This document shows positions 1 through 26,202 of a DNA stretch of 39,002 nt, piece by piece. The notes below the pieces were generated by a model. The model had not been told where the DNA came from and did no database searches. It saw nothing but the letters and a program-made list of their open reading frames with translations. The first letter of the stretch is position 1. Each line of letters begins with the position of its first letter. The position numbers and the translations under genes are program-made. The stretch comes from an uncultured delta proteobacterium (lineage in GTDB: Bacteria; Myxococcota_A; Polyangia; Polyangiales; Polyangiaceae). The stretch lies in assembly GCA_903906315.1 (NCBI GenBank), contig CAIVJW010000251.1, positions 1 to 39,002 of the forward strand, written 5' to 3'.

Positions 1-3000
1 CGCGCTTGATCGAGTCGATGCCGAGGTCGGCCTCGAGCTCCATCGGCATCGCGAGCATGTCGGCCGGGTAGCCCGTCTTCTCGGCCACGATCGCGAGCAT
101 CAGCGCCTCGAGGTCGACGGGAGTGCCGTGCGAGGCGGGTGAAGTGCCCTGCGGGGCACTCGAAGTGCCCTGCGAGGCGGTTGAAGTGCCCTGCGGGGCA
201 CTCGAAGTGGCCTGCGAGGCGGTTGAAGTGCCCTGCGGGGCGCTCGCGAGTGCCTCGCGTGGCACTACCGAGGCCCTCGCGGGTTGGTGCGAGGCCCCTG
301 CATGGGGGGTCGAAGGCCCTTGCACGGCACTCGGCACCGCCGCGCGGGGCACCTCCGGGGCCATCGCGAGGCCGCGCGAGGCCGTCGCGATCGCCACCGG
401 CGCGCCGCCGAGGATGGCCCCGAGGCCCAGGAACGACGCCTCGACCGTGTGCAGGAACGCGGTGTGCGTCTGCGCCATGGTCGAGAGATAGGCGGCGTGC
501 ACCTCGGTCGTCTGGCGCTGCGACTCCTGGTAGGCGCGGACCCACGCAAGGTGCGCGTCGCTCGGCATCGCGACGGGCGCGTGCGCGGCGGCGGCGGGGG
601 CGTAGGTCGGGGCGGCGGCGGGAGCGGGGACGTGCGTCATCGTGGGGGTGGGCGCGGCGGCGCGGGGGGCAGGGGGGGTGAGGGCGAGGGCGACGGGCGC
701 CGAAGCGACGGGATTCGGCGAGGTGACGGGCTTCGACGTCGCCGCGGGCGGCGGGGCCGGCTGCGGAGCCGACCGAGGCCCGTTCGGCTTCGGCAGCGCG
801 GCGGCGCCGCCCGGGGGCGGGTACGGCTTGCCGAGGTTCGCGCCGTTCATCGCGATCGTCATCGCGGGCTTCTTCTTCTTCGGCGTGGCGCTCGGCGGCG
901 CGTAGCCCTCCCAGAGCGGGGCGAAGTCGACGGCGACGCCGGTGGTCGCGAGGCGGCCGAGCGCCTCGTGCAGGGCCGTGACGCCGTGCTTGCCGCGGCG
1001 GTCCACGGCGATCGCGACGTGCGGGCGGCCGTCGAGGATCCTCCCGACCAGCTCGGTGAGCACCGACCCGGGGCCGACCTCGACGAACACGCGCGCGCCG
1101 CGCGCCCACATCGCCTCGATCTCCTCGACGAAGCGCACGGGCTTGGCGATCGCGTCCGACAGGTGCTGCCGGATCGCGGCGGCGTCGGCCGGGATCGGCG
1201 CGGCGTCGACGTTCGAGAAGACCTCGGCCGTCGTCTTCGCGAACGTCACGGGCGCGAGCGCCTCGCCGAACGCGACGCCCGCCGACGCGACGATCGAGCT
1301 GTGGAACGCGGTCGCGACCGAGAGCTTCTTCGCGGTCACGCCCCGCTTCGCGAGCTCGGCCACGACCCGGTCGACCGCCTCGACGCCGCCCGAGACGACG
1401 ACCTGCGTCGGGTGGTTGTGGTTCGCCACGACGACGTCGCCTCCGATCGCGGCGAGGTGCGCGCGGACTTCGTCGATCGTCGCCGCCACCGCGGCCATCG
1501 CGCCCGGCGTCTTGGCCGCGTCGCGCATGGCCTCGCCGCGCTTGCGCGCGAGGGCGAAGAAGGTCGCGTGGTCGAGGCCGCCCGCGGCCGCGATCGCGGT
1601 GAGCTCGCCGAAGCTGTGGCCGGCGCAGAGGGCGGGCCGGACGCCGGCCGCAGTGAGGACGTTGAAGAGCGCGAGGCTGGCGACGCCGATGCCGGGCTGC
1701 GCCCACTCCGTGGCGGTGAGCGCCTGCGCCTGCGCCTCGCGGTCCGCGTCGGTGAAGACCGGCCGCGGGAACACGACGTCGTGCACCGGGACGCCGTCGT
1801 ACCGGGCGGACGCGGCCTCGTCCCAGGCGGCGCGGGCCGCGTCGAACGTCATCGCGACCTCGGCGCCCATGCCGACGTACTGGCTGCCCTGGCCCGGGAA
1901 CAGGAACGCGATCTGGCCGGCGTCGCCGCCTGCCGCGTAGTGGGTGCCGGTCGGCGTCGAGAACGCCGCGTCGGGCGCCGCCGCGATCCGGGCGCGCGCC
2001 TGGCCGAGCTTCGCCGCGAGGTCGGCCGCGTCGGAGGCGACCACCGCGAGGCGCGCGCGATCGGTCGACTTGAAGGCCTCCTGCGATCGCCGCGCGACCG
2101 CGACGATCCCGTCGCCCTCCGCGCCCTTCGCGAGGTCGGCGCACTTCGCCGCGAGGCCGGCGCCCGTCGCGTCCGAGACGAGCACGAGCTCGGTCGGGAC
2201 CGTGCGCGCGCGCCACGCCTTCTTCGCGGGGCCGACGTACTCCTCGAGCGTGACGTGGAAGTTCGACCCGCCGAAGCCGAAGCTCGACACGCCCGCGCGC
2301 CGCGGGTGCGAGGCGTCGCGCACCCACGGGCGCGACCGGGTGTTCAGGTAGAACGGGCTCGACTCGATGCCGAGCTTCGGGTTCGGCCGGTCGACCTTGA
2401 TCGTCGGGGGAAGCACCTTGTGGTGCAGGGCCATGACGGCCTTGAACAGGCCCGCCGCGCCCGCGGCCGACTTGGTGTGGCCGATCTGCGACTTGACCGA
2501 CCCGAGCGCGCACCACGCGCCGTCCTTGCGGCCGCTCTCGCCGAACGCGATCTTCAGGCCCTCGAACTCGGCCGCGTCGCCGGCCTTGGTCGCCGTGCCG
2601 TGCGCCTCGACGAGCTCGACGGTGTCCGGCCCGTAGCCCGCGACCTCGTAGGTGCGGCGGATGGCGCGCGCCTGGCCCTCGGGCAGCGGCGCGTACACGC
2701 TCTTGCTGCGACCGTCAGAGGCCGATCCGACGCCGCGGATGACGGCGTACACGCGGTCGCCGTCGCGCTCGGCGTCGGCGAGGCGCTTGAGCGCGAGCAT
2801 CCCGATGCCCTCGCCGAGCAGCGTGCCGTCGGCCGCGTCGGAGAAGGGCCGGCAGTCGCCCGTGGGCGAGAGCGCCGGCGTCTTGGAGAAGCACATGTAC
2901 ATGAAGATGTCGTTCATCGTGTCGACGCCGCCGGCGATCACGAGGTCGCTCTGCCCGAGGGTGAGCTCGTTGACCGCCATCGAGAGCGCCGAGAGCGAGC

Positions 3001-3619
3001 TCGCGCAGGCTGCGTCGCTGACGCAGTTGGTGCCGCGGAGGTCGAAGCGGTTGGCGATGCGGCCGGCGACGACGTTGCCGAGCAGGCCGGGGAAGGTCGA
3101 CTCCTGCCAGGTCGGGTACTCCTTCGAGATGCGGCCGCAGATCGCCTGCGCCTCGTCCTCGGGGAGGCCGGAGTCGCGCAGCGCCTTCAGCCAGATCGGC
3201 CGCTGCAGGCGGCTCACCATCGTGCCGAGCAGCTCCTGGCCCGAGGTCACGCCGAGGATGACGCTCGCGCGGTCGCGGTTCATGGTCGCGAACTGCCCCT
3301 GCGTCGCGTCGTCGAGCACGCGCTGCGCGACGATGAGGCCGAGCAGCTGCGAGGTGTCGGTCGCGGGCACCGTGTTCGGCGGGATGCCGAACTCCATCGC
3401 GTCGAAGTCGACCTGCGACAGGAACGCGCCGCGCTTCGAGTACGTCTTGTCGGGCGCCGACGGGTTCGGGTCGTAGTAGTCCTCGGCGAGCCAGTGCGTC
3501 GGCGGCACGTCGGTCACGAGATCGCGACCGGCGAGGATGTCGCGCCAGAACCCGTGCGCGTCGGTCGACCCGGGGAACAGCGCGCTGACGCCCACGACGG
3601 CGATCGAAACCTGCGGCAT
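1..3619 (-). CDS. PfaA-like PUFA/polyketide synthase, KS-AT-ACP part (3' end beyond window)
   Basis: Type I iterative synthase of the polyunsaturated-fatty-acid (Pfa) class, cytosolic, 1206 codons visible and still open at base 1. The ketosynthase (about residues 5-460) has active-site Cys205 in DAACASS, His340 in EAHGTAT and His381 in GHTKSAAG. The acyltransferase (about 580-880) has Ser669 in GHSFGE. A long Pro/Ala-rich linker follows, ending in a heptad repeat, and then the first acyl carrier protein, with phosphopantetheine Ser1203 in GIDSIK, typical of Pfa ACPs. More ACPs, KR and DH would be expected beyond the edge. Start ATG at 3619 fits the conserved KS beginning (PQVSIAVVGVSALFPG). 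It lies 135 nt downstream of the pfaD-like gene on the same strand, so ER precedes KS-AT-ACP, the order I recall for terrestrial myxobacterial pfa1-pfa2. The product (EPA, DHA or another lipid) cannot be read from this part. Domain calls are secure; the Pfa class is likely. Confidence 0.88.
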   Translation of the reverse strand, partial: MPQVSIAVVGVSALFPGSTDAHGFWRDILAGRDLVTDVPPTHWLAEDYYDPNPSAPDKTYSKRGAFLSQVDFDAMEFGIPPNTVPATDTSQLLGLIVAQRVLDDATQGQFATMNRDRASVILGVTSGQELLGTMVSRLQRPIWLKALRDSGLPEDEAQAICGRISKEYPTWQESTFPGLLGNVVAGRIANRFDLRGTNCVSDAACASSLSALSMAVNELTLGQSDLVIAGGVDTMNDIFMYMCFSKTPALSPTGDCRPFSDAADGTLLGEGIGMLALKRLADAERDGDRVYAVIRGVGSASDGRSKSVYAPLPEGQARAIRRTYEVAGYGPDTVELVEAHGTATKAGDAAEFEGLKIAFGESGRKDGAWCALGSVKSQIGHTKSAAGAAGLFKAVMALHHKVLPPTIKVDRPNPKLGIESSPFYLNTRSRPWVRDASHPRRAGVSSFGFGGSNFHVTLEEYVGPAKKAWRARTVPTELVLVSDATGAGLAAKCADLAKGAEGDGIVAVARRSQEAFKSTDRARLAVVASDAADLAAKLGQARARIAAAPDAAFSTPTGTHYAAGGDAGQIAFLFPGQGSQYVGMGAEVAMTFDAARAAWDEAASARYDGVPVHDVVFPRPVFTDADREAQAQALTATEWAQPGIGVASLALFNVLTAAGVRPALCAGHSFGELTAIAAAGGLDHATFFALARKRGEAMRDAAKTPGAMAAVAATIDEVRAHLAAIGGDVVVANHNHPTQVVVSGGVEAVDRVVAELAKRGVTAKKLSVATAFHSSIVASAGVAFGEALAPVTFAKTTAEVFSNVDAAPIPADAAAIRQHLSDAIAKPVRFVEEIEAMWARGARVFVEVGPGSVLTELVGRILDGRPHVAIAVDRRGKHGVTALHEALGRLATTGVAVDFAPLWEGYAPPSATPKKKKPAMTIAMNGANLGKPYPPPGGAAALPKPNGPRSAPQPAPPPAATSKPVTSPNPVASAPVALALTPPAPRAAAPTPTMTHVPAPAAAPTYAPAAAAHAPVAMPSDAHLAWVRAYQESQRQTTEVHAAYLSTMAQTHTAFLHTVEASFLGLGAILGGAPVAIATASRGLAMAPEVPRAAVPSAVQGPSTPHAGASHQPARASVVPREALASAPQGTSTASQATSSAPQGTSTASQGTSSAPQGTSPASHGTPVDLEALMLAIVAEKTGYPADMLAMPMELEADLGIDSIKR
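122..250 (-). repeat. Heptad-coding tandem repeat in the PfaA linker
   Basis: Just before the ACP, the pfaA-like gene carries about six alternating 21-nt units. They encode xA(P/S)QGTS heptads (APQGTS, ASQATS, APQGTS, ASQGTS, APQGTS, ASHGT), so the true period is 42 nt as paired heptads. The frame is kept throughout. It probably forms a flexible spacer between AT and ACP. Shorter degenerate Pro/Ala-rich stretches continue toward the AT. Confidence 0.8.
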
Positions 3620-3671
3620 GAAACAGTCCTCTCGAAGTGCGACGGGGTGCTCAGAAGCGAAGCGGGGAGGG

Positions 3672-3738
3672 TCCACGGGGGCACGGAGCGCAGAGAGGCA
3701 CGAGTCGTCCTCTCCGTGTGCAATGCGTCTCCGTGGGG
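3672..3738. repeat. Intergenic imperfect hairpin repeat, copy A
   Basis: Imperfect inverted repeat in the 135-nt gap between the pfaD-like and pfaA-like genes. The left arm contains CCACGGGGGCACGGAG and the right arm CTCCGTG and CTCCGTGG, around a loop of AGAGAGGCACGAG type. It shares CACGGAG, CGC and AGAGAGG blocks with a second intergenic copy at 11269-11345, so it belongs to a dispersed family. In the RNA it could form a hairpin between the two cistrons. Its function is unknown. Confidence 0.6.
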
Positions 3739-3754
3739 AACCCTCTCCTCTGGA

Positions 3755-5383
3755 TCACGCGAGGAAGCGCGGGCGGAACTCGAAGGCGCTCGGGGGGACC
3801 GCGACGCCGTAGGTGCGGAGCTGCTGGGCGCGCGTCACGACGGCCGCGCCCTCGAGGAGGTTGCGGCCGATCTGGACGGTGGTGCGGTGCAGCGGGGCCT
3901 CGAGGAAGGATCCGCGCGCCCAGGCGTTGAACGCGCCCATCGCCGATCCGCACCAGATCTGGTAGTCGGCGCGGCGGTCGGGGTCGCCGTCGATGGCCCA
4001 GCGGCTGGCCTTGCCGAGGTACCAGCGGAAGACGAGCGCCATCTTGTGCTTGGGCTCGCGATCGGCCCGGGCGACCTCGGCCGGGTCGCGCTGCCTCCAG
4101 AACGCGCTCGTCTCGGCCCAGATGGCGTCGATGGTCGCGTGCAGCACGTCGCGCTCGAGCTTCTGGCGGACCTCGGCGGGCATCGCCTCGAACGAGGGCC
4201 ACGCGACGTACGCCTCGTAGAGCTTGAGGCCGCGGACGCCGAACATCGTGCCGCGCTTGAGGACCTGCACCTTCACGCCGAGCTCGAACATGTCGGCGGC
4301 GGGGGCCATCATCACGTCGGCGATGTCGGCCTGCGCGAGCAGGCGCTTGCCGTGGTCCGAGAGGCCGGCCTCGACGGCCGACTGGTTGACCGACCCCGTC
4401 ACCACGTACGCGGCGCCGAGGGCGAAGGCGGCCGCGACCGCGCCGGGGGTGCCGAGCCCGCCGGCGGCGCCGACGCGGATCGGGCGGCCGTAGGCCTGCT
4501 CCTCGGCGATCTGGTGGCAGAGCGTGAGGATCGTCGGCACGAGCGCGGTCAGCGTCTGGTTGTCGGTGTGGCCGCCGGAGTCGCCCTCGACCGTGAGGTC
4601 CTCGGCGACGGGCACGCGCGCCGCGAGGTCGGCCTCGGCCGGCGTGACGAGCCCCCGCGCGACGAGGCCCCTCAGGATCTCGGCCGGCGCGGGGCGGAGG
4701 AAGTGCCGGGCGACCTCGGGGCGGGAGATCTTCGCGAAGACGTGGTGCGCGCGGTGGACGCGGCCCGAGGCGTCCTGCGTGAGGCCGGTCGCGGCGTACC
4801 GCACGATCGCGGGCGTGAGCGCCATGTACGCCGAGGCCGAGACGCGCGCGACGTTCCGGCGGATGAGGAGGTCGGCGACCTTGTCCTCCTGGTCGGGCTC
4901 CTGCGGCGAGTGGATCAGGTTCACGCCCCAGGGCAGGGCGCTGCCGAGCTCGGCCTCGAGCACGTCGAGGGCCTTGCCGATGCGGTCGATCCCGAGCCCG
5001 GCGGACCCGAAGAAGCCGATCATCCCCGCGCGACCGGCCTCGATGACCATGCGCGTCGTGGCGATGCCGTTGGCCATCTCGCCGACCACGTACGGGAAGC
5101 GCACGCCGTGGACCTCGCCGAACGATCGGTCGCCGAGCCACTCGGGGTAGAGCGCGGGCAGCGTCGCGAGCAGCGGCAGCGCGCGCGCGTCGCCGGCCGC
5201 CCCGGGCAGCAGCTCGCCGCCGAACGCGACCCCGAGGCGCCCCGAGGCGCGGTCGCGGACCACGTGCAAGGGCTCCCGAACGCGCGCGATCGCGGCGGGG
5301 AGCTCGTGGGGGCCGAAGGAGGGGGCGTCGGCGCCGGCGCGCCAGAGGCCGAGCGGGGTGAGGTCGGTGGGGATGACGGACAC
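3755..5383 (-). CDS. pfaD: PfaD-like trans-acting enoyl reductase (FMN, nitronate monooxygenase fold)
   Basis: Reduces the enoyl intermediates made by the adjacent Pfa synthase, using FMN and NAD(P)H; cytosolic. It is 542 aa from GTG 5383, close to the usual PfaD length of about 540. The family features visible are the N-terminal Pfa-specific region (TPLGLWRAG), a TIM-barrel core with GFFGSAGLGIDRI, GAAGGLGTPGAVAAAFALGA and VTGSVNQSAVEAG, and a conserved C-terminal segment (GAFNAWARGSFL). Longer starts exist at GTG 5392 and TTG 5422. GTG 5383 is preferred because a weak TTGTAC-17-TAGATG promoter (5422-5394, minus strand) would start transcription at about 5387. It is followed on the same strand by the pfaA-like gene, so it is the first gene of the cluster as in myxobacteria. 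Family call is firm; the exact start is not. Confidence 0.88.
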   Translation of the reverse strand: MSVIPTDLTPLGLWRAGADAPSFGPHELPAAIARVREPLHVVRDRASGRLGVAFGGELLPGAAGDARALPLLATLPALYPEWLGDRSFGEVHGVRFPYVVGEMANGIATTRMVIEAGRAGMIGFFGSAGLGIDRIGKALDVLEAELGSALPWGVNLIHSPQEPDQEDKVADLLIRRNVARVSASAYMALTPAIVRYAATGLTQDASGRVHRAHHVFAKISRPEVARHFLRPAPAEILRGLVARGLVTPAEADLAARVPVAEDLTVEGDSGGHTDNQTLTALVPTILTLCHQIAEEQAYGRPIRVGAAGGLGTPGAVAAAFALGAAYVVTGSVNQSAVEAGLSDHGKRLLAQADIADVMMAPAADMFELGVKVQVLKRGTMFGVRGLKLYEAYVAWPSFEAMPAEVRQKLERDVLHATIDAIWAETSAFWRQRDPAEVARADREPKHKMALVFRWYLGKASRWAIDGDPDRRADYQIWCGSAMGAFNAWARGSFLEAPLHRTTVQIGRNLLEGAAVVTRAQQLRTYGVAVPPSAFEFRPRFLA

Positions 5384-5447
5384 GAGACGCACGCATCTAC
5401 ACAGCCGCAAAGATCGGTACAACCACGGGATTCCCCCGGGGATGCGT

Positions 5448-5475
5448 CGTGACCGGGCCGTGACGGAGGCGTGAC
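5448..5475 (-). promoter_or_regulatory. Triple direct repeat upstream of pfaD (candidate activator site)
   Basis: Three copies of GTCACG (minus strand; CGTGAC on plus) at 5448-5453, 5459-5464 and 5470-5475. They are spaced exactly 11 bp apart, one helical turn, and sit about 25-55 bp upstream of the candidate -35 of the pfaD-pfaA operon. This is the arrangement of a regulator binding three half-sites on one DNA face. No regulator is identified. Confidence 0.45.
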
Positions 5476-5519
5476 TCGAGGCTCGGGAGGTGCGTACGAA
5501 CGGACGCGGCTCGGAGGCG

Positions 5520-6938
5520 TCAGCGCGTCGCGTTGCTCGGGCCGAGGAACTTCGCGGTGACGGTGATCGCGGTCGAGGGGTCGGCGGCGCCGACGCGCCG
5601 GATGCGGACGGTGATCGGGAAGTCGCCGTGCAGCGATCCGGCGGCCATCGAGACGAAGACGGGCGCCGTCGCCGATCCGAACGAGGCGAGCTCGACGCGG
5701 GCGAGCGGGACGACGAACGTGGCGCCGGCCGTGGCCTCGGGCTCGATCAGGAAGGTCTCGGTGGCGTTGGTCTTGTTCACGAGGTGGATCGTGAAGGAGT
5801 TACGTACCTGGCCGCCGTCCATGACGTAGGGCAGGCCCGGCTGCCGGAAGAGGTTGGCCTCGAACTCGGTGTGCCGCCGGAACGCGAGCGTCGCGACGAC
5901 GACGCCGACGACCAGGAGCGCGGTGTAGAGGTAGAGCCGCGGCCGGAGGAAGCGCTTGGGCTTGCCGGCGAGGCCGTTCAGCGAGTCGTAGCGGACGAGG
6001 CCGCGCGGGCGGCCGATCTTGTCCATCACCTCGTCGCAGGCGTCGATGCACTGCGTGCAGCCGATGCAGTCGAGCTGCATGCCGTGGCGGATGTCGATCG
6101 CCGTGGGGCAGACGACGATGCAGCGCTTGCAGTCGACGCAGTCGCCGGCGCCCTCGGTGCCGGCCTTGCCGCGGGGCTCGCCGCGCAGCTCGTCGTAGCC
6201 GATCGTGATCGAGTCGGTGTCGACCAGGACCGACTGCAGGCGGCCGTAGGGGCAGATGATGAGGCAGAGCTGCTCGCGGAACCACGCGAAGTTGCCGTGG
6301 AGGATCAACGTGACGCTGGCGGCCCACGCGAAGGCCTCGGGGTGCGCGCCGGGGTTGCCGCGCATCATCTCCCAGAGCCGCGGCAGCGAGACGAAGTAGC
6401 CGACGAAGACGTGCGCGACGAAGATGGACGTCGCGAGGAAGAGCAGGTGCTTCACCGTGCGGCGCAGCAGCTTCTCGAGGCCCCACGGCGCCTTGTCGAG
6501 CTTGATGCGCTTCTCGCGCGGGCCCTCGGTGAGGCGCTCGATCGGGCGGTAGAGGCCCTCGAGGAAGACCGTCTGCGGGCACGCCCAGCCGCACCACACG
6601 CGCCCCGCGACGGCGGTCGCGTAGAGCAGCGTGAAGGCCGTGCCCGTGATGATGAAGAACATCAGCCAGATGTCCTGCGAGTTGAACGTCGACCCGAAGA
6701 GGAAGAACTTGCGGTGCTCGACGTCGACGAAGATCGCAGGGTGGCCGCTTACGGGGATCCACGGCAGCGCCGCCCACAGCGCGATCAGCGCGTAGAAGAC
6801 GACGCGGCGCAGGGTGACGAAGCGGCCCGAGACGTCCGCCGGGTACACGAAGGATCGCGATCCGTCGGCGTTGAGCGACCCCTGCGGCACGGTCGGCGGC
6901 AGGAGGACGGGGAGGTGCTTCTTGTCTTGGGCTGACAT
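5520..6938 (-). CDS. ccoG: CcoG/FixG-like membrane ferredoxin
   Basis: Cytoplasmic-membrane protein of the cytochrome oxidase accessory family, 472 aa, the usual length. Order: N-terminal tail, transmembrane helices from about residue 40, the CGWACPQTVFLEG motif whose CxxxCP cysteines are the proposed copper ligands, a second TM pair, two ferredoxin-type [4Fe-4S] motifs (CVDCKRCIVVCP and CIGCTQCIDAC), a late TM helix, and a C-terminal Ig-like FixG domain. Known CcoG proteins reduce Cu(II) for cbb3 oxidase assembly, but no ccoNOP genes lie here. It follows the DsrC-like gene by 59 nt on the same strand, downstream of the leftward sigma-54 promoter, so it probably belongs to the sulfur island. 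It may instead pass electrons or serve metal loading there; that is inference. ATG at 6938 is the only start that fits the family. Confidence 0.88.
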   Translation of the reverse strand: MSAQDKKHLPVLLPPTVPQGSLNADGSRSFVYPADVSGRFVTLRRVVFYALIALWAALPWIPVSGHPAIFVDVEHRKFFLFGSTFNSQDIWLMFFIITGTAFTLLYATAVAGRVWCGWACPQTVFLEGLYRPIERLTEGPREKRIKLDKAPWGLEKLLRRTVKHLLFLATSIFVAHVFVGYFVSLPRLWEMMRGNPGAHPEAFAWAASVTLILHGNFAWFREQLCLIICPYGRLQSVLVDTDSITIGYDELRGEPRGKAGTEGAGDCVDCKRCIVVCPTAIDIRHGMQLDCIGCTQCIDACDEVMDKIGRPRGLVRYDSLNGLAGKPKRFLRPRLYLYTALLVVGVVVATLAFRRHTEFEANLFRQPGLPYVMDGGQVRNSFTIHLVNKTNATETFLIEPEATAGATFVVPLARVELASFGSATAPVFVSMAAGSLHGDFPITVRIRRVGAADPSTAITVTAKFLGPSNATR

Positions 6939-6997
6939 GGGTGGGCTCGTGCGGTTCGCGCGGAGCGCGGTGGGCTCCCCGGGGCCGGTCGTTCGCT

Positions 6998-7267
6998 TCA
7001 GTCGGTCGGGAGGCCCGCGACGCGGAGGATCACCGCCTCGGCGTCGGGCGAGAAGAGGGCGCGGACCTGGTCGACGGCAAGGCCCGCGCACGCGGCGAGG
7101 TGCGCGAGGCCCGGCGCGCGGCCGGTGATCGCCCAGTGCTCGCGAGCGGACCCGAGGACGCTCCAGTGGAGCGGCCCGAGGACGATCCCCTCGCGAGCGG
7201 CGATCGCCTCGGCCAGGTCGGGGCTCCAGTCGTCGGCCGGAGCCGGATCGCGCATCGCGGCGTGCAT
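6998..7267 (-). CDS. DsrC/TusE-family protein lacking the C-terminal cysteines (RspA-like)
   Basis: Small cytosolic protein of 89 aa related to the sulfur carriers DsrC and TusE. Visible family positions are DDW near the N-terminus, LAEAIAAREGIVLGPLHW, SAREHW, then LF and AGLP near the C-terminus. DsrC and TusE end AGLPKPxxC, with the sulfur-carrying Cys as the penultimate residue. This protein stops at AGLPTD, so that Cys and the second DsrC Cys are both absent; the only Cys lies mid-protein in LAACAGLA. Within the DsrC/TusE/RspA scheme it fits the cysteine-less RspA (regulatory) type rather than a sulfur carrier. ATG 7267 was chosen because a leftward sigma-54 promoter (7281-7296) would start transcription at about 7270; ATG 7255 is an alternative. 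It is probably co-transcribed with ccoG and divergent from psrA. The homology is short but the spacing of motifs is convincing. Confidence 0.72.
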   Translation of the reverse strand: MHAAMRDPAPADDWSPDLAEAIAAREGIVLGPLHWSVLGSAREHWAITGRAPGLAHLAACAGLAVDQVRALFSPDAEAVILRVAGLPTD

Positions 7268-7280
7268 CGGGCGCTTGCTG

Positions 7281-7296
7281 AGCAACCTGCGCGCCA
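7281..7296 (-). promoter_or_regulatory. Sigma-54 promoter, leftward (DsrC-like gene and ccoG)
   Basis: On the minus strand reads TGGCGCGCAGGTTGCT: a -24 element TGGCGCG, a 4-nt gap and a -12 element TTGCT, which is consensus spacing (TGGCACG-N4-TTGCA/T). The invariant GG and GC are present. Predicted +1 is about 7270, 3 nt before ATG 7267. Confidence 0.65.
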
Positions 7297-7322
7297 GCGA
7301 CCGGCCTCGGATCCCCCTCGGA

Positions 7323-7342
7323 CACCGGATCGAAAGCCGGTG
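7323..7342. repeat. Inverted repeat CACCGG-N8-CCGGTG
   Basis: Perfect 6-bp arms separated by 8 bp in the divergent control region, about 55-70 bp upstream of the leftward sigma-54 start. It could be an activator or other regulator site; no regulator can be assigned. Confidence 0.35.
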
Positions 7343-7440
7343 CAGGGCAGCCATCCGGCCTTCTGCGGCGGGCTTCCGGCCGGGGCGGCCTCCTCCGCCT
7401 GAGAGGGGCGACGCGCGCGGCGTCGCTCCCCGCAACCAGA

Positions 7441-7479
7441 TGTTTCACCGCGCGTTGCACGTTGAAACACCTTGAAACA
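7441..7479. promoter_or_regulatory. Candidate upstream activating sequences for the sigma-54 activator
   Basis: AT-rich island between the two divergent sigma-54 promoters. TGTTTCA (7441-7447) and TGAAACA (7463-7469) form an inverted repeat with a 15-nt spacer, and a second TGAAACA (7473-7479) repeats the right arm 10 bp further on. The block centres about 95 bp before the psrA start and about 190 bp before the DsrC-like start, typical enhancer distances. The Fis-type HTH activator encoded at 14953-16359 is the obvious candidate to bind; this is inference. Confidence 0.5.
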
Positions 7480-7529
7480 AGGAGGTGCACGCGGCAGCCG
7501 TTGCACCGCCGGATCCGTGGGGGCGGCGT

Positions 7530-7545
7530 TGGCACCGTGGTTGCT
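7530..7545 (+). promoter_or_regulatory. Sigma-54 promoter, rightward (psrA operon)
   Basis: Reads TGGCACCGTGGTTGCT: -24 TGGCACC, 4-nt gap, -12 TTGCT. Only one base of the -24 heptamer departs from TGGCACG. Predicted +1 is about 7556, 2 nt before the psrA ATG at 7558. Confidence 0.75.
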
Positions 7546-7557
7546 CGGCGGGCCGTC

Positions 7558-9765
7558 ATGGGCGAAACACCCCCCTTCGCGCGGCGACGCTTCCTGAGCC
7601 TCGGCGCGGGCACGGCGGCTGCGGTCGCCGCGGCGCGGATCGGCCTCTCGAGCGACGCCGAGGCCTCGATCGGCACGAGCGATCCGGGCACCGACGGCGA
7701 CGTCGTGCGGTCGGTCTGCGAGGTCTGCTTCTGGAAGTGCGGCATCCAGGGCCACGTGAAGGCGGGTCGGCTGACCAAGATCCAGGGCAGCCCGGCGCAC
7801 CCGCTCTCGAACGGCAAGCTCTGCCCGCGCGGCGTCGGCGCCGTCGGGCTCGCCTACGACCCGGACCGCCTCGTGAAGCCGCTGCTGCGCGTCGGCGCGC
7901 GCGGGTCGGACTCGATGAAGCCGGTCTCGTGGGAGGAGGCGATCGGCTTCCTGGCCGACAAGCTCGACGGCATCCGCAAGAAGCACGGCCCGGAGGCCGT
8001 CGCCCTCTTCAACCACGGCGCGGGCGCCTCGTGGTTCAAGCACCTCTTCCAGGCGTACGGCTCGGTCAACTTCGGGGCGCCGTCGTTCGCGCAGTGCCGC
8101 GGTCCGCGCGACGTGGCCTTCGACCTCACGTTCGGATCGGACCCGGGGTCGCCGGAGATCCTCGACATCTCGCGATCGAACTGCGTCGTGCTGCTCGGAT
8201 CGCACCTCGGCGAGAACATGCACAACACGCAGGTGCAGGACTTCGCCGAGCTCTGCGCGAGGGACGCCGACCTCATCGTCGTCGACCCGCGCTTCTCGAC
8301 GGCCGCGTCGAAGGCGAAGACCTGGCTGCCCATCCGGCCGGGCACCGACACCGCGCTCCTGCTCGCGTGGATCCACGTCGTCGTCACCGAAGGCCGCCAC
8401 CAGCGCGAGTACGTCGAGAAGCACACGAACGGCTGGGGCGAGCTTTCGGCGCACGTGGCGACGTTCACGCCCGAGTGGGCGGCCGTCGAGACGGGACTCG
8501 ACGCCGAGATCATCCGCACGACGGCGCGCCGCATCGCCGCGGCGGCGCCGGCCGTCATGGTGCACCCGGGGCGACACGCCTCCTGGTACGGGCCCGACGA
8601 CACGCACCGGGCGCGCGCGGTCGCGATCCTGAACGGCATCCTCGGCGCGTGGGGCCACCGCGGCGGCTTCTTCCGGCCGAACGGGATGAAGCTCGCGAAG
8701 TACCCGACGCCCGCGTACCCGAAGGCCAAGCCGCCGGCCGATCGGCGCCCGGGCGAGGCGCCGTTCGCGCTCGAGCCGCTCGCGCAGGGCCTCCGCCGCG
8801 CGACCATCGACGGCCAGCCGTACCCAATCAAGGGCTGGTTCGTGTACGGAACGAACCTGATCCAGGCCTTGCCGCAGCGGGCCGAGACGCTGAAGGCCAT
8901 CGAGGCGCTCGACCTGCTCGTCGTGTGCGACCTGCTCCCGGCGGAGATCGCGAGCTACGCGGACGTGGTGCTGCCCGAGGCGTCGCACCTCGAGCGCTAC
9001 GACGATCTGCTGGGCGTGTCGTGGCACCGAGGCGGCGTGGCGCTGCGCCAGCCGATGATCGATCCGCCCGGCGAGGCGAAGCCCGGCTGGTGGATCGCGC
9101 GCGAGATCGGCCACACGATCGGGCTCGGCGCGTACTTCCCGTGGAAGGACGTGAAGGAGTACCTCGCCGAGCGCTGCCGCCTGTCGAACGTCGACTTCGC
9201 CGAGCTGCAGAGGGAGGGCATCGTGCTCTCGCCCGCGAAGCCGACGGTGGTCGAGGACGGGCTCGCGCTCACGTTCGCCACCGAGAGCGGCAAGATCGAG
9301 CTCTACAGCGAGAAGCTGAAGGCGGCCGGCTTCGATCCGCTCCCGGTGTTCCGCCGGCAGGACGCCGCCCCGCCGGGCTATTTCCGCCTGCTCTACGGGC
9401 GCGCCGCGGCGCACACGTTCGGTCGCACCACCAACAACCGCCTGCTCGGCGAGCTCTCGCACAACGACCGCGTGTGGGTGAACGCGAAGGTCGCGGCCGA
9501 CCTCGGGATCGCCGACGGCGCGACCGTGCGGCTCGTGAACCAGGACGGCGTCGAGAGCGCCCCCGTGAAGGTGAAGGCGACCGAGCGCATGCGCGGCGAC
9601 TGCGTGTTCATGGTCCACGGCTGGGGCCACACGGCCAAGGGGCTGCGCTACGCGAAGGGCAAGGGCGCCGACGACTCCGAGCTCGTCACGCGCGTCGCGG
9701 TGGATCCGGTCATGGGCGGAACGGGGATGCGCGTGAACTTCGTCGCGTTCCGGAAGGAGGCCTGA
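7558..9765 (+). CDS. psrA: Molybdopterin oxidoreductase, polysulfide/thiosulfate reductase catalytic subunit (PsrA/PhsA type)
   Basis: Periplasmic catalytic subunit of a three-part sulfur-compound reductase, 735 aa (PsrA and PhsA are about 760). A Tat signal (ARRRFLSLGAG, then a hydrophobic stretch and ASI) fits ATG 7558. The [4Fe-4S] cluster Cys are 54, 57, 61 and 89 (CEVCFWKC, LCPRG). A Cys ligand for Mo/W is expected at C180 in AQCRGPRD, as in the PsrA/PhsA group. The C-terminal dinucleotide-binding domain includes HTFGRTTNN and ends VNFVAFRKEA. PsrB- and PsrC-like genes follow at once. The substrate may be polysulfide, thiosulfate or tetrathionate; sequence alone does not decide, though rhodanese, YeeE and DsrC-like neighbours favour a sulfur compound over arsenate or selenate. 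The AAGGAGG at 7479 is too far upstream to be its ribosome site, so a near-leaderless message from the sigma-54 promoter is likely. Confidence 0.87.
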   Translation: MGETPPFARRRFLSLGAGTAAAVAAARIGLSSDAEASIGTSDPGTDGDVVRSVCEVCFWKCGIQGHVKAGRLTKIQGSPAHPLSNGKLCPRGVGAVGLAYDPDRLVKPLLRVGARGSDSMKPVSWEEAIGFLADKLDGIRKKHGPEAVALFNHGAGASWFKHLFQAYGSVNFGAPSFAQCRGPRDVAFDLTFGSDPGSPEILDISRSNCVVLLGSHLGENMHNTQVQDFAELCARDADLIVVDPRFSTAASKAKTWLPIRPGTDTALLLAWIHVVVTEGRHQREYVEKHTNGWGELSAHVATFTPEWAAVETGLDAEIIRTTARRIAAAAPAVMVHPGRHASWYGPDDTHRARAVAILNGILGAWGHRGGFFRPNGMKLAKYPTPAYPKAKPPADRRPGEAPFALEPLAQGLRRATIDGQPYPIKGWFVYGTNLIQALPQRAETLKAIEALDLLVVCDLLPAEIASYADVVLPEASHLERYDDLLGVSWHRGGVALRQPMIDPPGEAKPGWWIAREIGHTIGLGAYFPWKDVKEYLAERCRLSNVDFAELQREGIVLSPAKPTVVEDGLALTFATESGKIELYSEKLKAAGFDPLPVFRRQDAAPPGYFRLLYGRAAAHTFGRTTNNRLLGELSHNDRVWVNAKVAADLGIADGATVRLVNQDGVESAPVKVKATERMRGDCVFMVHGWGHTAKGLRYAKGKGADDSELVTRVAVDPVMGGTGMRVNFVAFRKEA

Positions 9766-9768
9766 GCG

Positions 9769-10302
9769 ATGCGCCGGGTCATGGTCATCGACGCGCGGCG
9801 GTGCGTGGGCTGCGAGGCCTGCGTGGTGGCGTGCAAGACGGAAAACCACGTGCCAGACGGCGCGTACCGTGACTGGGTCGTGCAGGAGACGCGCGGCGAG
9901 TACCCGAGCCTCGAGCTCACGATCCAGTCGCAGCGCTGCAACCACTGCTCGAACGCGCCCTGCGTCGCGAACTGCCCGACGGGGGCGAGCCACTACCGCG
10001 GCGACGGCACCGTGCAGGTCGACCGCGACAAGTGCACCGGCTGCCGCGCGTGCATCGCGTCGTGCCCGTACGGCGCGCGCTACGTCGCGCCCGAGGGGCA
10101 CGTCGAGAAGTGCACGCTCTGCGTCCACCGGCTCGACCGCGGCAAGCCGACCGCGTGCGAGGAGGTCTGCCCGACCTCGGCGATCGCGACCGGCGACCGC
10201 GGCGACCGCGGGTCGGTCGTCGCGCTGCGCCTGCGCCGCGGCACCGCCTCGGTGGTGACGCCCGAGGCCGGCACCGAGCCCAACGTCAGCTACGTGCGCT
10301 GA
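9769..10302 (+). CDS. psrB: Four-cluster ferredoxin subunit (PsrB/PhsB/NrfC type)
   Basis: Electron-transfer subunit of 177 aa linking the catalytic and membrane subunits on the periplasmic face. Sixteen Cys in four groups are visible: CVGCEACVVAC near the N-terminus, CNHCSNAPCVANC, CTGCRACIASC, and the split group CTLC with CEEVC. This is the full four-[4Fe-4S] set. There is no signal peptide of its own, as usual for PsrB-type subunits exported piggyback with the Tat-bearing partner. It starts 3 nt after the psrA stop and ends 11 nt before psrC, so the three genes are one operon. Confidence 0.92.
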   Translation: MRRVMVIDARRCVGCEACVVACKTENHVPDGAYRDWVVQETRGEYPSLELTIQSQRCNHCSNAPCVANCPTGASHYRGDGTVQVDRDKCTGCRACIASCPYGARYVAPEGHVEKCTLCVHRLDRGKPTACEEVCPTSAIATGDRGDRGSVVALRLRRGTASVVTPEAGTEPNVSYVR

Positions 10303-10313
10303 AGGAGACGGTC

Positions 10314-11258
10314 ATGCAACCGCACACCGAGATCGACTCCACCCGCAGCGCGGCGATCGCCCTGGCCGAGCGCTTCTGGGGCTGGGAGATCCCCGTCTAC
10401 CTGTTCCTCGGCGGCCTCGTCGCGGGCCTGATGCTCGCCGTGAGCGCCGCCGTGATCCTGATCGGCCGCGATCGCATCACGCGCGCGATGAAGCTCGGGC
10501 TGCTCGGCGCGCCGGTGCTGCTCTCGATCGGCATGGGCGCGCTATTTCTCGACCTCACGTACAAGCTGCACGTCTTCCGGTTCTACACGACGCTCGAGCT
10601 CTCGGCGCCGATGTCGCTCGGATCGTGGGTGCTGCTGCTCGTCTACCCGGTGCAGATCGCGCTCGTGATCGCGATGCCGGTCGAGGAGCTCGTGCCGTGG
10701 CTCGATCGCGTGCCGGCGATCGGCCGGGCGCGCGAGATCGCGGCGGCGCACGTGACCAAGCTCGCCTGGGCGGGCGTCGGGCTCGGCGTGGCGCTCGGCA
10801 TCTACACGGGCGTCCTGCTCTCGGCCACGGTCGCGCGGCCGCTCTGGTCGAGCGGCGCGCTCGGGTTCCTGTTTCTCGCGTCGGGATCGTCGACGGGCGT
10901 CGCGGCGCTGATGTTCGCCGAGGAGGACCACGAGGCCCTCGGCTGGCTCGGCCGAGCCGACCTCGGCCTCATCGCCTTCGAGCTCGCCGTCCTGCTGCTG
11001 TGGATCGTGGGCCTGATGACGCAGGGGCCGCTCTACCGTGAGGCCGCCGCGCTGCTCCTTTCGGGGCCGTGGGCGCCCGCGTTCCTCGGCATGGTCGTGT
11101 TCGGCGGGCTGATCGTGCCCGCCGCGCTCGAGGGCCTCGCGCTGCGGGGGCGCGCGCTGCACTCGCGCCTCGTGCCGGCCCTCGTGATCGCAGGGGGGCT
11201 GCTCCTGCGGTTCGTCATCGTCTACGCGGGGCAGGAGGTCGGCTTCGTCGCCGGCTGA
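10314..11258 (+). CDS. psrC: Quinone-interacting membrane subunit (PsrC/NrfD family)
   Basis: Integral membrane protein of 314 aa with about eight or nine hydrophobic helices. It exchanges electrons between the (mena)quinone pool and PsrB. The opening WGWEIPVYLFLGGLVAG is characteristic of NrfD/PsrC proteins (the PVYLFLGG stretch), and SAPMSLGSW lies in the third helix region. An AAGGAGA ribosome site precedes ATG 10314. It is the third gene of the psrABC block; the next gene is separated by a hairpin repeat. Confidence 0.9.
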   Translation: MQPHTEIDSTRSAAIALAERFWGWEIPVYLFLGGLVAGLMLAVSAAVILIGRDRITRAMKLGLLGAPVLLSIGMGALFLDLTYKLHVFRFYTTLELSAPMSLGSWVLLLVYPVQIALVIAMPVEELVPWLDRVPAIGRAREIAAAHVTKLAWAGVGLGVALGIYTGVLLSATVARPLWSSGALGFLFLASGSSTGVAALMFAEEDHEALGWLGRADLGLIAFELAVLLLWIVGLMTQGPLYREAAALLLSGPWAPAFLGMVVFGGLIVPAALEGLALRGRALHSRLVPALVIAGGLLLRFVIVYAGQEVGFVAG

Positions 11259-11366: not shown

Positions 11367-11909
11367 ATGAGCCAAGAAACCGTCACCGCCGAGGCGCCGC
11401 GCGAGCGTCCGCTCTGGGACCCGTACGTCGCGGGCTTCTTCCTCGGGCTCGTCCTGCTCGGCACCTACCTGGTGTTCGGGCGCGGGCTGGGCGCGTCGGG
11501 CGCGCTCGCGCGCATCACGGCGCGGCTCGTCGACGTCGTCGCGCCGGCCTGGGTCGAGGGCAACGGCCACCTGGGGGGCTACTTCGCGAAGGGCGCGAAG
11601 TGGTGGGACGACTGGCTCGTGTTCGAGCTGATCGGCGTCGTCCTCGGCGGCGTCTTCGCCGGCCTCACGGCCGGTCGCTTCGGCTGGAAGGTCGAGGGCG
11701 GCCCGCGCGTCTCGTCGCGCACGCGCCTGATCGCGGCCTTCGGCGGCGGGGCGATCGTCGGCGTCGGCGCGCGGCTCGCGCAGGGTTGCACGAGCGGCCA
11801 GGCGCTCTCCGGCGGCGCGACGCTCGCGCTCGGGAGCTGGGCGTTCATGTTCTCGGTGTTCGGCGGCGCGTACGCGCTGGCCTGGTTCGTGAGGAGGCTC
11901 TGGACATGA
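11367..11909 (+). CDS. YeeE/YedE-family (TsuA-like) membrane protein, first half
   Basis: Membrane protein of 180 aa, four or five predicted helices, representing one half of a YeeE/YedE sulfur-compound permease. The signature is GARLAQGCTSGQALSGG near residue 140, with the conserved Cys used by TsuA proteins to relay thiosulfate. GGAGGAG precedes ATG 11367. It overlaps the next yeeE gene by 4 nt (ATGA), and the two presumably work as a pair. The expected role is movement of a sulfur anion or sulfur atom across the membrane for the PsrABC module; direction and substrate are not known from sequence. Confidence 0.87.
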   Translation: MSQETVTAEAPRERPLWDPYVAGFFLGLVLLGTYLVFGRGLGASGALARITARLVDVVAPAWVEGNGHLGGYFAKGAKWWDDWLVFELIGVVLGGVFAGLTAGRFGWKVEGGPRVSSRTRLIAAFGGGAIVGVGARLAQGCTSGQALSGGATLALGSWAFMFSVFGGAYALAWFVRRLWT

Positions 11910-12550
11910 TGCCGCTCCACCCCTCGACGTGGCTCTCCTACACGTTCGCGATCCTCGCGGGCTTCGCGTTCGGCTTCGTGCTCGAGCGCGCGGGCTTCGG
12001 CAGCTCGCGCAAGCTCGCCGCGCAGTTCTACCTGCGCGACCTGACCGTGCTGAAGGTCATGTTCACGGCGATCGTGACGGCGATGCTCGGCCTCGCCGTG
12101 CTGCGCGCGGTCGGCTTCGTCGACTGGGAGGCCGTCTACGTGAACCCGACGAACCTCGGGCCGCAGGTCGTCGGCGGCCTGATCTTCGGCGCCGGCTTCG
12201 TCGTCGGCGGCTACTGCCCCGGCACGTGCATCGTCGCGGCGGCGACCGGCAAGGTGGACGCGATCGTGTTCCTCGGCGGCGTGATGGCCGGGATCCTGGG
12301 GTTCTCGGCGGCGTGGCCGTGGGTCGGCGGGTTCGCGAGCTCGGGCGGCGGGCAGCGGCAGTTCGTCTACGAGTGGCTGCACCTCTCGTACGGGGTCGTG
12401 GCCATCCTCGTGACGTTGATGGCGCTCGGCATGTTCGCCGGCGCGGAGTGGATCGAGAAGAAGCTGCGCGGCGGCACGATCGCGCCGCCTCGCGCGGACG
12501 CGAGCGCCGGGCCCGCGGCCGACGCGGGGGCCGCGCCGACGAAGGCTTGA
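11906..12550 (+). CDS. YeeE/YedE-family (TsuA-like) membrane protein, second half
   Basis: Partner of the preceding gene, 214 aa, with five or so helices and the second signature GFGSSRKLAAQFY followed by GGYCPGTCIVAAATGK, which carries two conserved Cys. The C-terminal 25 residues are Ala/Pro-rich and hydrophilic. GAGGAGG ends 8 nt before ATG 11906; ATG 11909 is also possible. Full-length TsuA carries both halves in one chain; here they are two translationally coupled proteins, a common arrangement beside rhodanese and sulfur-enzyme genes. Confidence 0.88.
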   Translation: MMPLHPSTWLSYTFAILAGFAFGFVLERAGFGSSRKLAAQFYLRDLTVLKVMFTAIVTAMLGLAVLRAVGFVDWEAVYVNPTNLGPQVVGGLIFGAGFVVGGYCPGTCIVAAATGKVDAIVFLGGVMAGILGFSAAWPWVGGFASSGGGQRQFVYEWLHLSYGVVAILVTLMALGMFAGAEWIEKKLRGGTIAPPRADASAGPAADAGAAPTKA

Positions 12551-12563
12551 ACGGGAGCAAACG

Positions 12564-13154
12564 ATGAACCCTCGCACGATCCGCATCACGTTCATCGGGG
12601 CCGCCCTCGCCCTCGGGGTCGCGAGCGCCGCGCTCGCCGGGCGCGTCGCCGGCCCGGGACCGACGCCCTCGGTCGCGCCGGCCGAGGTGGACCCGTTCTC
12701 CGTGGCGGGCCTGCTCGCCGAGGCGCCGCCGGACGTCGTCGTGATCGTGCTCGAGGGCGCGCCTCGCCACCCGCTGCGCGGCGCGATGCCCGCGTCGAGC
12801 TTCGGCGCCGACGACGAGGCCCTCGTCGCAGGCGCCCCGAAGGTCCGGCGGATCGTGCTCGCCGGCGGGGACCCGGTCCGCGTCGATCGGATCGCGCGCA
12901 AGCTGTCCTCGAGCGGGCGCGACGTGCGGGTGCTAGCCGGCGGCCTCGGGGCGTGGGATACGGCAATGGATGCCGACCCGAAGGCCCCGGCCGACGGTGC
13001 GACGGTCGAGGTCTGGGCCGCGTACCGGTCGCGGCTCGCGCTGCGGCGCTCGTTCGGCGACGCCGCCGCGGCGCCCGTGTCGCCCTTCGCCGCGCCCATC
13101 GCGCCCATCGCCGCGCCCGGCGGCGGCGGCGCGAAGAAGCGCGAGGGCTGCTAG
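12564..13154 (+). CDS. Exported rhodanese-fold protein without the catalytic cysteine
   Basis: Protein of 196 aa with an N-terminal signal or anchor (ITFIGAALALGVASAALAG) and a rhodanese-like domain at about residues 40-140. The closing rhodanese motif is clear (VRVLAGGLGAW). The preceding active-site loop, usually CxxGxR/K, reads VLAGGDPVRVDR and has no Cys. The only Cys is the last residue (KKREGC). Sulfurtransferase activity by the usual persulfide is therefore unlikely unless the terminal Cys substitutes; a sulfur-binding or sensing role is possible. It lies 13 nt after yeeE and 15 nt before the cytochrome gene, in the same operon. Confidence 0.68.
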   Translation: MNPRTIRITFIGAALALGVASAALAGRVAGPGPTPSVAPAEVDPFSVAGLLAEAPPDVVVIVLEGAPRHPLRGAMPASSFGADDEALVAGAPKVRRIVLAGGDPVRVDRIARKLSSSGRDVRVLAGGLGAWDTAMDADPKAPADGATVEVWAAYRSRLALRRSFGDAAAAPVSPFAAPIAPIAAPGGGGAKKREGC

Positions 13155-14952: not shown

Positions 14953-16359
<1,407 letters not shown>

Positions 16360-16582
16360 GATCGTCCGGGGGGCGGCGCGGCGAAGGGGAGAGCTCCCGG
16401 CGGTGCGCGTGGAGCGGGCCCCGCGAGCCCGCGCACGGGGGGGGCGAGGGGGCGCGCCACCTCGGGGCACTAGGTGGCACGTCCACGGCGCTCCTTCAAG
16501 CCGCGCGAGCCGGGCGCGAGGTGCGCGTCCGTGCGTGCGAGGGCGCGCCGCGATCGGCCCGCCGCATGCACGGCGTCACGGG

Positions 16583-20315: not shown

Positions 20316-20633
20316 TCAGCGCGTGAAGGCGCCGATCACGCTCAGCAGCTCGTCTACCGCCGCGTCGCCGCGCCCCCGCTGCACCGCGTCGCGCAGGCAG
20401 CCGCGCGCGTGATCGCGGACCATCGCCAGGGCGACCGCGTCGAGCGCCGATCGCACGGCCGCGATCTGCGTCAGCACGTCGACGCAGGGGCGCGCGTCCT
20501 CGACCATGGCGGCGAGCCCGCGCACCTGCCCCTCGATGCGGCGCAGGCGCCTTTGCAGCGCTTGCGGGTCGGTGCGCGCGCGCGGCTTGGCCGGCGTGGC
20601 GGGCGCCGCGTCAGGGCGCTTCGAAGCCGGCAT
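20316..20633 (-). CDS. csoR: CsoR-type copper-sensing repressor
   Basis: Small all-helical DNA-binding protein of 105 aa in the CsoR/RcnR/FrmR family. Core: LQRRLRRIEGQVRGLAAMVE, then Cys50, His75 and Cys79 with exactly the Cys-24-His-3-Cys spacing of the copper(I) site in CsoR; FrmR and RcnR lack the last Cys. It should release DNA on binding Cu(I). It is the last gene of the copA-copZ-csoR operon, starting inside the 3' end of copZ (23-nt overlap). The likely target is the palindrome at 23322-23338 before copA, giving autoregulation. Confidence 0.9.
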   Translation of the reverse strand: MPASKRPDAAPATPAKPRARTDPQALQRRLRRIEGQVRGLAAMVEDARPCVDVLTQIAAVRSALDAVALAMVRDHARGCLRDAVQRGRGDAAVDELLSVIGAFTR

Positions 20634-20817
20634 CCTGGATCGCCGCCTTCAGCTGCCCGACGTTCGCGACCGCCGGGTCGAACGTCACCTCGGCCTCCGC
20701 GCGCTCGAGCGACACGGCCGCGCTCTTCACGCCCGCGACGCCCGTGAGCACGTTCGTCACGCTGCGCACGCAGCCCATGCACGTCATCCCGTCGACCTTC
20801 ACCTTGACCGATTCCAT
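20611..20817 (-). CDS. copZ: CopZ-like copper chaperone (single HMA domain)
   Basis: Cytosolic Cu(I) carrier of 68 aa made of one heavy-metal-associated domain. The MxCxxC site reads GMTCMGC (residues 10-16), followed by the usual betaalphabeta pattern and GFEAP at the end. It lies between copA (69 nt upstream, with a duplicated palindrome in the gap) and csoR. It probably hands copper to CopA or to CsoR. Confidence 0.9.
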   Translation of the reverse strand: MESVKVKVDGMTCMGCVRSVTNVLTGVAGVKSAAVSLERAEAEVTFDPAVANVGQLKAAIQDAGFEAP

Positions 20818-20838
20818 TCGCGTGAGCCTCCTGCCTGG

Positions 20839-23307: not shown

Positions 23308-23316
23308 CGCCGGCTG

Positions 23317-23345: not shown

Positions 23346-23409
23346 GGGACGGTCCCGCCGCGCCCGGTGCGCGTTCGCGCGCGCCGAAGCGCTTTGCTAC
23401 GATCGCGCG

Positions 23410-26201: not shown

Positions 26202-26202
26202 C

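Follow-up and report, generated by a model that had tools for sequence, protein, structure and literature searches.

Predicted divergent sigma-54 promoters with a linked PAS-domain activator gene, and start codons close to the promoters, at a myxobacterial psr operon

Genes around the 7268-7557 gap

The DNA analyzed here, hereafter the window, is a stretch of 39,002 nucleotides that makes up one whole contig of an 8.79 Mb assembly in 455 contigs. The interval 7268-7557 is exactly the gap between two start codons, at 7267 on the minus strand and at 7558 on the plus strand. Rightward of the gap lies a plus-strand operon whose first gene encodes a psrA/phsA-like molybdopterin oxidoreductase (7558-9765; PF00384, PF01568 and PF04879) with an N-terminus that looks, by eye, to be of the twin-arginine type. 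It is followed by a psrB-like 4Fe-4S subunit (9769-10302, Pfam), an NrfD-type membrane subunit (10323-11258; PF03916, E 6e-34), two halves of a YeeE/YedE-type sulfur transporter (11367-11909 and 11912-12550, both PF04143; the first half matched the TsuA model weakly, with 32.9 bits against 400), a small secreted-looking protein (12564-13154) that is rhodanese-like only by eye and has no Pfam match, and a multihaem cytochrome c (13170-14945, Pfam). The small protein has orthologues in the same gene order in the related loci L017-L019 and L021-L023. In having the molybdenum subunit, the 4Fe-4S subunit and the NrfD membrane subunit in that order, the operon belongs with the Psr/Phs molybdoenzymes; it is unlike known Psr/Phs operons in the two YeeE/YedE halves, the small secreted-looking protein and the multihaem cytochrome that are added here, in its sigma-54-type promoter, and in a PhsA score below the curated cut-off of the NCBIfam equivalog (467.2 against 694 bits). 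Because of this score the substrate, be it thiosulfate, polysulfide or another sulfur compound, has to be inferred, and we infer that the operon encodes a thiosulfate/polysulfide-type reductase with sulfur uptake.

Leftward of the gap, on the minus strand, 6998-7267 encodes a DsrC-like protein of 89 amino acids (PF04358, E 2.5e-9; 27.7 bits with the NCBIfam TusE/DsrC/DsvC model, under its cut-off of 53.5). One or more conserved cysteines at the C-terminus are the defining residues of the DsrC/TusE sulfur carriers, and they are absent from the DsrC-like proteins of the window and of L017, L018 and L065. We therefore rejected a DsrC/TusE sulfur-carrier function, and these proteins are unlikely to carry sulfur in the manner of either DsrC or TusE; a regulatory or docking role is our guess. 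In L065, from an Acidobacteriota genome, the DsrC-like gene without C-terminal cysteines (5545-5766) lies immediately before psrA and has the same orientation. In L023, what is left of a DsrC-like gene beside psrA (about 5700-5890) seems by eye to be its final portion alone, with no divergent promoter. Fifty-nine nucleotides after the DsrC-like gene of the window comes ccoG (5520-6938, minus strand; TIGR02745, 414.5 bits, cut-off 316.7), which may be co-transcribed with it. An earlier note on this DNA had treated the DsrC-like gene and ccoG as a pair, but no ccoG turned up near any of the three other DsrC-like genes (L017, L018 and L065), so we dropped it as a conserved member.

About 7.4 kb from the gap, beyond the last gene of the psr operon and pointing towards it, a minus-strand gene (14953-16470, start codon uncertain) encodes a sigma-54 activator, or bacterial enhancer-binding protein (bEBP), with predicted PAS, AAA+ and Fis-type helix-turn-helix (HTH) domains. 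Several other gene groups were seen in the window. At 2-5446 (minus strand) are a PfaD-like protein and a large ketosynthase/acyltransferase protein resembling part of a polyunsaturated-fatty-acid-synthase cluster. At 20316-24216 (minus strand), on the same contig as ccoG, a CsoR/RicR-like regulator gene lies beside a copper-type P-ATPase of 1109 amino acids with repeated HMA domains. At 24606-28928 (plus strand) there are genes of the NAD-linked formate dehydrogenase type (Fdh-alpha, NuoE/F-like, 2Fe-2S and Fe4S4 parts, with overlapping frames), preceded by a stretch that looks FdhD-like by eye.

The promoter pair and its palindrome

By motif search, score and conservation, a -24/-12 (sigma-54) promoter is predicted at either end of the gap: TGGCACCGTGGTTGCT at 7530-7545 on the plus strand before psrA, and TGGCGCGCAGGTTGCT at 7296-7281 on the minus strand before the DsrC-like gene. 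The earlier note had placed divergent sigma-54 promoters with perfect spacing at these two positions, and both sites indeed have the GG and GC doublets at -24 and -12 with 10 bp between them (GG-N10-GC). The genome encodes RpoN (PF04552, one match, E 2.7e-65). With up to two mismatches allowed, TGGCACN5TTGCW matched the window 5 times, compared with 7.1 times in shuffles; a motif of this looseness means nothing by itself. The two promoters are the matches with 0 and 1 mismatch among the five. The earlier note had also proposed to score the window with a sigma-54 matrix, and with a home-made consensus score in place of a published matrix the two sites came first and second (14.4 and 13.8, the next site reaching 13.1). 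Across all 8.79 Mb of the genome the stricter TGGCRCN5TTGCW occurs at only seven places, and the gap 7268-7557 has two of them; the reversed control gave 33 matches, showing that the sigma-54 motif is not enriched genome-wide and that the case for the two sites rests on their place, orientation and conservation. The other five genomic matches appear by eye to be mostly in coding sequence.

The conservation is seen most clearly in two other genomes, where the promoter pair recurs before the same two genes. L017 (the same locus as G056/L010), whose psrA is 79% identical, has TGGCACCGCGGTTGCT before psrA and TGGTGCGGAGGTTGCT before the divergent DsrC-like gene, and L018, with a psrA 77% identical, has an imperfect CGGCATCGAGGTTGCC before psrA and TGGCGCGTGGGTTGCT before the DsrC-like gene. 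L017, L018, L019, L020 and L023 each have a counterpart of the psrA promoter in the corresponding position before psrA; in L019/L020 and L023 this promoter is kept and no divergent DsrC-like gene was detected. The psrA site is weak in L021 (CGGAGCGTGCCTTGCA) and lacks the C of the -12 element in L022. If the matches were due to chance and the genes used housekeeping promoters, we would not expect two of the seven strict genomic matches to share a single gap of 290 bp, each correctly oriented, nor both sites to recur next to the two genes in two further genomes. Thus, even though the loose search finds no more sites than shuffled sequence does, and the strict motif has fewer matches in the genome than its reversed control, we regard coincidence as very improbable. 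Scanning 5400-10000 for sigma-70 promoters gave no site in the real sequence and none in shuffles, and so carries little weight; in the promoter/terminator scan the shuffles yielded as many matches as the real sequence, and no RNA family reached its gathering threshold. On sequence grounds, the two divergent sigma-54 promoters of 7268-7557 are real and conserved as a pair, and an activator gene is linked to them.

Between the promoters, the earlier note had pointed to a cluster of TGTTTCA and TGAAACA heptamers as a shared activator region. The heptamers are present, with TGTTTCA at 7441-7447 and two TTGAAACA half-sites on the plus strand at 7462-7469 and 7472-7479 (2 matches in the window against 0.02 expected). 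A shared upstream region is supported; the arrangement TGTTTCA-N15-TGAAACA is not, and we rejected it as the operator, because GTTTC-Nx-GAAAC had no preferred spacing over 21 loci (no x occurred more than three times) and the window's own x = 17 was found once among them. What is conserved is a dyad, GNAAC-N5-GTTNC, that begins 9 bp upstream of the first heptamer, and on sequence comparison the heptamers are half-sites of this dyad. The predicted upstream activating dyad of the window, GCAAC-CAGAT-GTTTC at 7432-7446 (copy GCAACCAGATGTTTC), is conserved before psrA elsewhere and is the only GNAAC-N5-GTTNC on the plus strand of the window and the only GVAAC-N5-GTTTC on either strand. The TTGAAACA half-sites are probably a degenerate second activator site; this second dyad is better formed in L017, L018 and L023.

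The spacing of 5 stands out upstream of psrA. At 24 loci picked for an activator or a good promoter, as were the 21 loci used for the flanks and the heptamers, 7.9 kb of upstream sequence held 19 dyads with this spacing, whereas the 13 other spacings in the range 0-13 gave five dyads in all, and 45.6 kb of psrA coding sequence held two with spacing 5. The palindrome was first noticed on L017-L023 plus the window. Positions left free in the search were also biased, namely an outer T (12 of 18 dyads), an outer A (12/18), an inner R (16/18) and an inner Y (17/18), extending the dyad to the palindrome TGAAACRNNNYGTTTCA. The near-identical upstream regions of L019 and L020 enter the promoter, spacing and association counts as two loci, and the 18 dyads as one.

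The centre of the palindrome is about 90 bp and about 145 bp from the two -24 elements. NtrC binds 15-bp dyads whose half-sites are 5 bp apart, and the present system is like the NtrC-type sigma-54 systems in its GG-N10-GC promoters with a 15-bp GNAAC-N5-GTTNC dyad some 90-145 bp upstream, and in an activator that has a Fis-type HTH and a GAFTGA loop. It is unlike them in the half-site sequence, in a predicted PAS domain instead of a receiver domain, in a sulfur/molybdoenzyme operon as target, and in start codons 12-15 nt past the -12 element.

In the genome of the window, GVAAC-N5-GTTTC is found at 12 separate places (13 matches, since one palindrome counts twice), and when only strict sites with a sigma-54 score above 13.5 within 300 bp were considered, the one at 7432 alone qualified, so that no other regulon member was found among these places. 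The five other genomic TGGCRC matches had no dyad nearby. The earlier idea of a self-contained regulon that ties the two gene sets together is plausible on this sequence evidence. A perfect GAAACGTCCGGTTTC palindrome was also found just before an ATG in L133 (G000:C429:3303-3317), with no good sigma-54 site; the same kind of site, or a similar one, may have a further use there.

The linked activator and its predicted PAS domain

The claim that a sigma-54 activator gene sits at the end of the island held up, since the protein of 14953-16470 matches PF00158 (E 1.3e-69) and PF02954 (E 2.2e-12), has the GAFTGA loop in the alignment, and is thus a bEBP. It had no Response_reg match and therefore does not group with the NtrC-type response regulators. 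For its N-terminal domain there was no Pfam match, and we turned to structure prediction. The AlphaFold2 model (15901-16308, minus strand; mean pLDDT 87.1) gave a best Foldseek E of 1.9e-6 to LOV/PAS structures, and VIA-align, in which absence from the results excludes no family, returned Z 14.1 to PpsR (3.9 A over 114 residues) and Z 13.6 to 8px4 (2.2 A over 107 residues). The domain is predicted to have a PAS fold and to be the sensor of the activator. Of 24 aligned sequences, 17 have a cysteine at column 143 and 16 have one at column 166, and the window protein has Cys at the first and Trp at the second; we take these columns as a lead for redox or metal sensing, and not as evidence for it.

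Does this activator go together with the palindrome? Among the best 80 of 564 psrA relatives, 49 genomes were searched with the activator N-terminal domain, and 22 had a match. The dyad was found before psrA in 14 of these 22 genomes against 2 of the 27 others (p 3.9e-5, nominal because the genomes are related), and shuffles gave it at 0.18 of the 22 loci on average and at three at most. When the seven loci on which the palindrome was first noticed were left out, the numbers were 10 of 17 with the activator and 0 of 25 without it. Eight of the 22 lack a strict dyad (L022, L046, L052, L057, L065, L077, L078 and L092), and the two dyad loci without an orthologue are L017 and L021, where GCAACCTCTGGTTGC fits the loose pattern. 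The linkage of the activator to psr proposed in the earlier note is thus supported, the orthologue tracking the enhancer palindrome. Within the same best 80 of 564 relatives, activator orthologues were located no more than 6 kb from psr operons in Myxococcota, Acidobacteriota and one Planctomycetota genome.

Many activators of this kind exist in Myxococcota according to the part of the literature consulted (PMC12316311), and another activator of the genome might bind the palindrome while that of 14953-16470 does not act here. L017 fits such a situation, as it has the palindromes and both promoters, that is, the full architecture, and no activator orthologue was found in its genome (the second search had no positive control). 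This alternative is set against the linkage of activator and psr operon in several phyla, against the association of orthologue and dyad, and against the way in which the repeat type changes together with the recognition helix of the activator. The four closest orthologues (L097-L100) have the same recognition helix as the window, ISRTTLWR(K/R)MRALGL, and the L021/L022 activator has a differing helix, MHRTTLYRKR, together with GATGCAAC-type repeats. We consider it unlikely that a different activator operates at this locus, and the linked PAS-domain protein is the preferred candidate.

Two side observations concern the same protein family. In L021 (5683-5990) and L022 (5700-6005) the activator itself, with a different HTH, is the gene transcribed divergently from psrA, and GATGCAAC/GTTGCATC-type repeats replace the TGAAAC palindrome. 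A second match to the activator N-terminal domain was obtained in G060, G085 and G095 (L121, L119 and L120), which may possibly represent a second regulon.

Start codons near the predicted transcription starts

The two promoters are unusually close to the genes they precede. From TTGCT to the ATG of psrA there are 12 nt (7546-7557, plus strand), within which the predicted transcription start falls, and from TTGCT to the ATG of the DsrC-like gene there are 13 nt (7268-7280, minus strand). Over eight myxobacterial loci the distance from TTGCN to the psrA ATG is 12 nt in the window, L017 and L018, 13 nt in L019, L020, L021 and L022, and 15 nt in L023, with the near-identical L019 and L020 to be counted as one; at the DsrC-like gene it is 13 nt in the window and L018 and 12 nt, with GTG, in L017. 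In Campylobacter jejuni, transcription was reported to start 8-13 nt past the sigma-54 word (PMC3847290), and this range combined with a spacing of 12-15 nt gives leaders of about 0-7 nt, inside the 0-10 nt that passages of PMC4842269 and PMC5243855 class as leaderless. As read from the sequence, neither gene of the window has a Shine-Dalgarno (SD) word between promoter and start codon. The psrA and DsrC-like messages therefore probably start, going by these distances, some 0-7 nt from the start codon.

These leader lengths come only from the usual distance between -12 and +1, and the sites could be sigma-54 promoters whose genes have working start codons or transcription starts elsewhere, with ordinary leaders, the tight spacing being due to compact intergenic regions. 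An AAGGAGG does occur upstream of psrA, at 7479-7485, but there is no in-frame start at the usual distance from it; and more distant psrA loci, 14 in number, have the ATG that adjoins the twin-arginine motif at least 23 nt after the promoter site. A displaced psrA start is opposed by the lack of any in-frame Met between the ATG at 7558 and the twin-arginine motif, and the explanation as a whole by the repetition of the 12-15 nt spacing at psrA in eight myxobacterial loci and of 12-13 nt at the DsrC-like gene in three, as well as by the ATG peak described below for 80 sampled sites, mostly without SD words. We judge that ordinary leaders are rather unlikely here, and continue with near-leaderless messages as the preferred reading.

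Taken together, we propose, with a probability of roughly three in four, that the two divergent sigma-54 promoters in 7268-7557 share one upstream activating region. The PAS-domain enhancer-binding protein of 14953-16470 would bind the TGAAACRNNNYGTTTCA palindrome at 7432-7446, a pairing of protein and DNA suggested by their co-occurrence, possibly assisted by the two half-sites at 7462-7479, and would remodel the sigma-54 polymerase at both promoters. One transcript would cover psrA-psrB-nrfD-yeeE-yeeE-(rhodanese-like)-multihaem cytochrome and the other the cysteine-less DsrC-like protein and perhaps ccoG; both mRNAs would have leaders of about 0-7 nt and be translated in a leaderless or near-leaderless manner, and the PAS domain would presumably sense the signal.

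The short spacing is not limited to this locus. In 59 genomes of the order (the window's own and 58 relatives), TGGCRYN5TTGCN-N11..13-ATG had 432 matches against 97 for the reversed pattern, whereas the same pattern with the ATG 20 nt further (N31..33) had 204 against 107; the reversed control is low by itself, as the comparison sets give ratios of about 1.8-2.1. Short exceeded long in 41 of the 59 genomes, long exceeded short in 12, and they were equal in 6. The window's own genome alone had three short matches against two in the control, two of the three being the promoters described here, and showed no trend. In 112 genomes across the phylum, some of them common to the 59 and counted for the short pattern and its reversed control only, the numbers were 86 versus 28 in 18 genomes of the order, 45 versus 5 in five of the class, and 372 versus 84 in the 89 others. 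In 44 genomes assigned to other phyla by their record titles, the short pattern gave 79 versus 43 and the long one 77 versus 37. Any pattern of this kind that ends in ATG is thus about twice as frequent as its reverse, and the short one has no advantage over the long one.

We also sampled 80 TGGCACN5TTGCW sites from four genomes, all 32 from G037, 30 of 45 from G045, 8 of 13 from G013 and all 10 from G007; G037 and G045 had been picked for their many strict matches, with a short-spacing excess already known, and the sites within them were taken regardless of spacing. ATGs that open a reading frame were most frequent 12-16 nt away, where 23 were counted and 3.8 expected (P 2e-11), with 8 GTGs against 4.3 expected, and an ATG at 8-16 nt was unevenly distributed over the genomes (15/32 in G037, 6/30 in G045, 1/8 in G013 and 2/10 in G007). 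An SD-like word preceded the start at 2 of 23 short-leader sites and at 26 of 36 longer-leader sites, in a test that favours the difference found, because the stretch is shorter for short leaders and any of several ATGs counts for long ones. In much of the phylum, start codons thus apparently all but coincide with predicted transcription starts. We lean, with some reserve, towards the broader view that Myxococcota have a large class of sigma-54 promoters fused to the gene, with the start codon 12-16 nt past -12 and leaderless or near-leaderless, SD-free mRNAs, of which the pair in the window would be one instance, divergent and conserved, under the control of a new PAS activator and of a TGAAACRNNNYGTTTCA enhancer serving Psr/Phs-YeeE operons across several phyla.

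As a class, leaderless transcripts are familiar. A close parallel is the leaderless expression in Deinococcus-Thermus, where the -10 region stands next to the ORF throughout the phylum and was tested experimentally (PMC12340547). In both cases a promoter element precedes the start codon by a short and constant number of nucleotides, the leader is absent or very short, and the occurrence is phylum-wide; they differ in that the element there is the housekeeping -10 box and here the -12 of activator-dependent sigma-54 promoters in Myxococcota, as predicted from genome sequence. Elsewhere, passages of one report describe 320 starts at 0-10 nt from start codons with an extended -10 motif upstream (PMC4842269). 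Desulfovibrio vulgaris has a sigma-54 regulome with many enhancer-binding proteins, which the sigma-54 promoters need, and in having many of them it is like the present bacterium (PMC4641369, main text); that main text has no mention of 'thiosulfate', 'polysulfide', 'GAAAC', 'GTTTC', 'leaderless' or 'molybdopterin'. In the open PMC literature we recognised nothing on leaderless sigma-54 transcripts in Myxococcota or on sigma-54 control of Psr/Phs-YeeE operons, and single leaderless genes with sigma-54 promoters may well be in print already.

The regulon itself seems to be of a known type, and what appears new is how nearly the start codons coincide with the predicted transcription starts. Sigma-54 promoters are the classic example of activator-dependent transcription, and leaderless mRNAs use a different route of translation initiation. 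If the reading is right, the sigma-54 genes of the phylum would share both a transcriptional and a translational class, and gene starts in annotation could be mis-set. The activator and its palindrome would also provide a handle on the switching of an operon of the sulfur-respiration type in environmental Myxococcota, Acidobacteriota and Planctomycetota.
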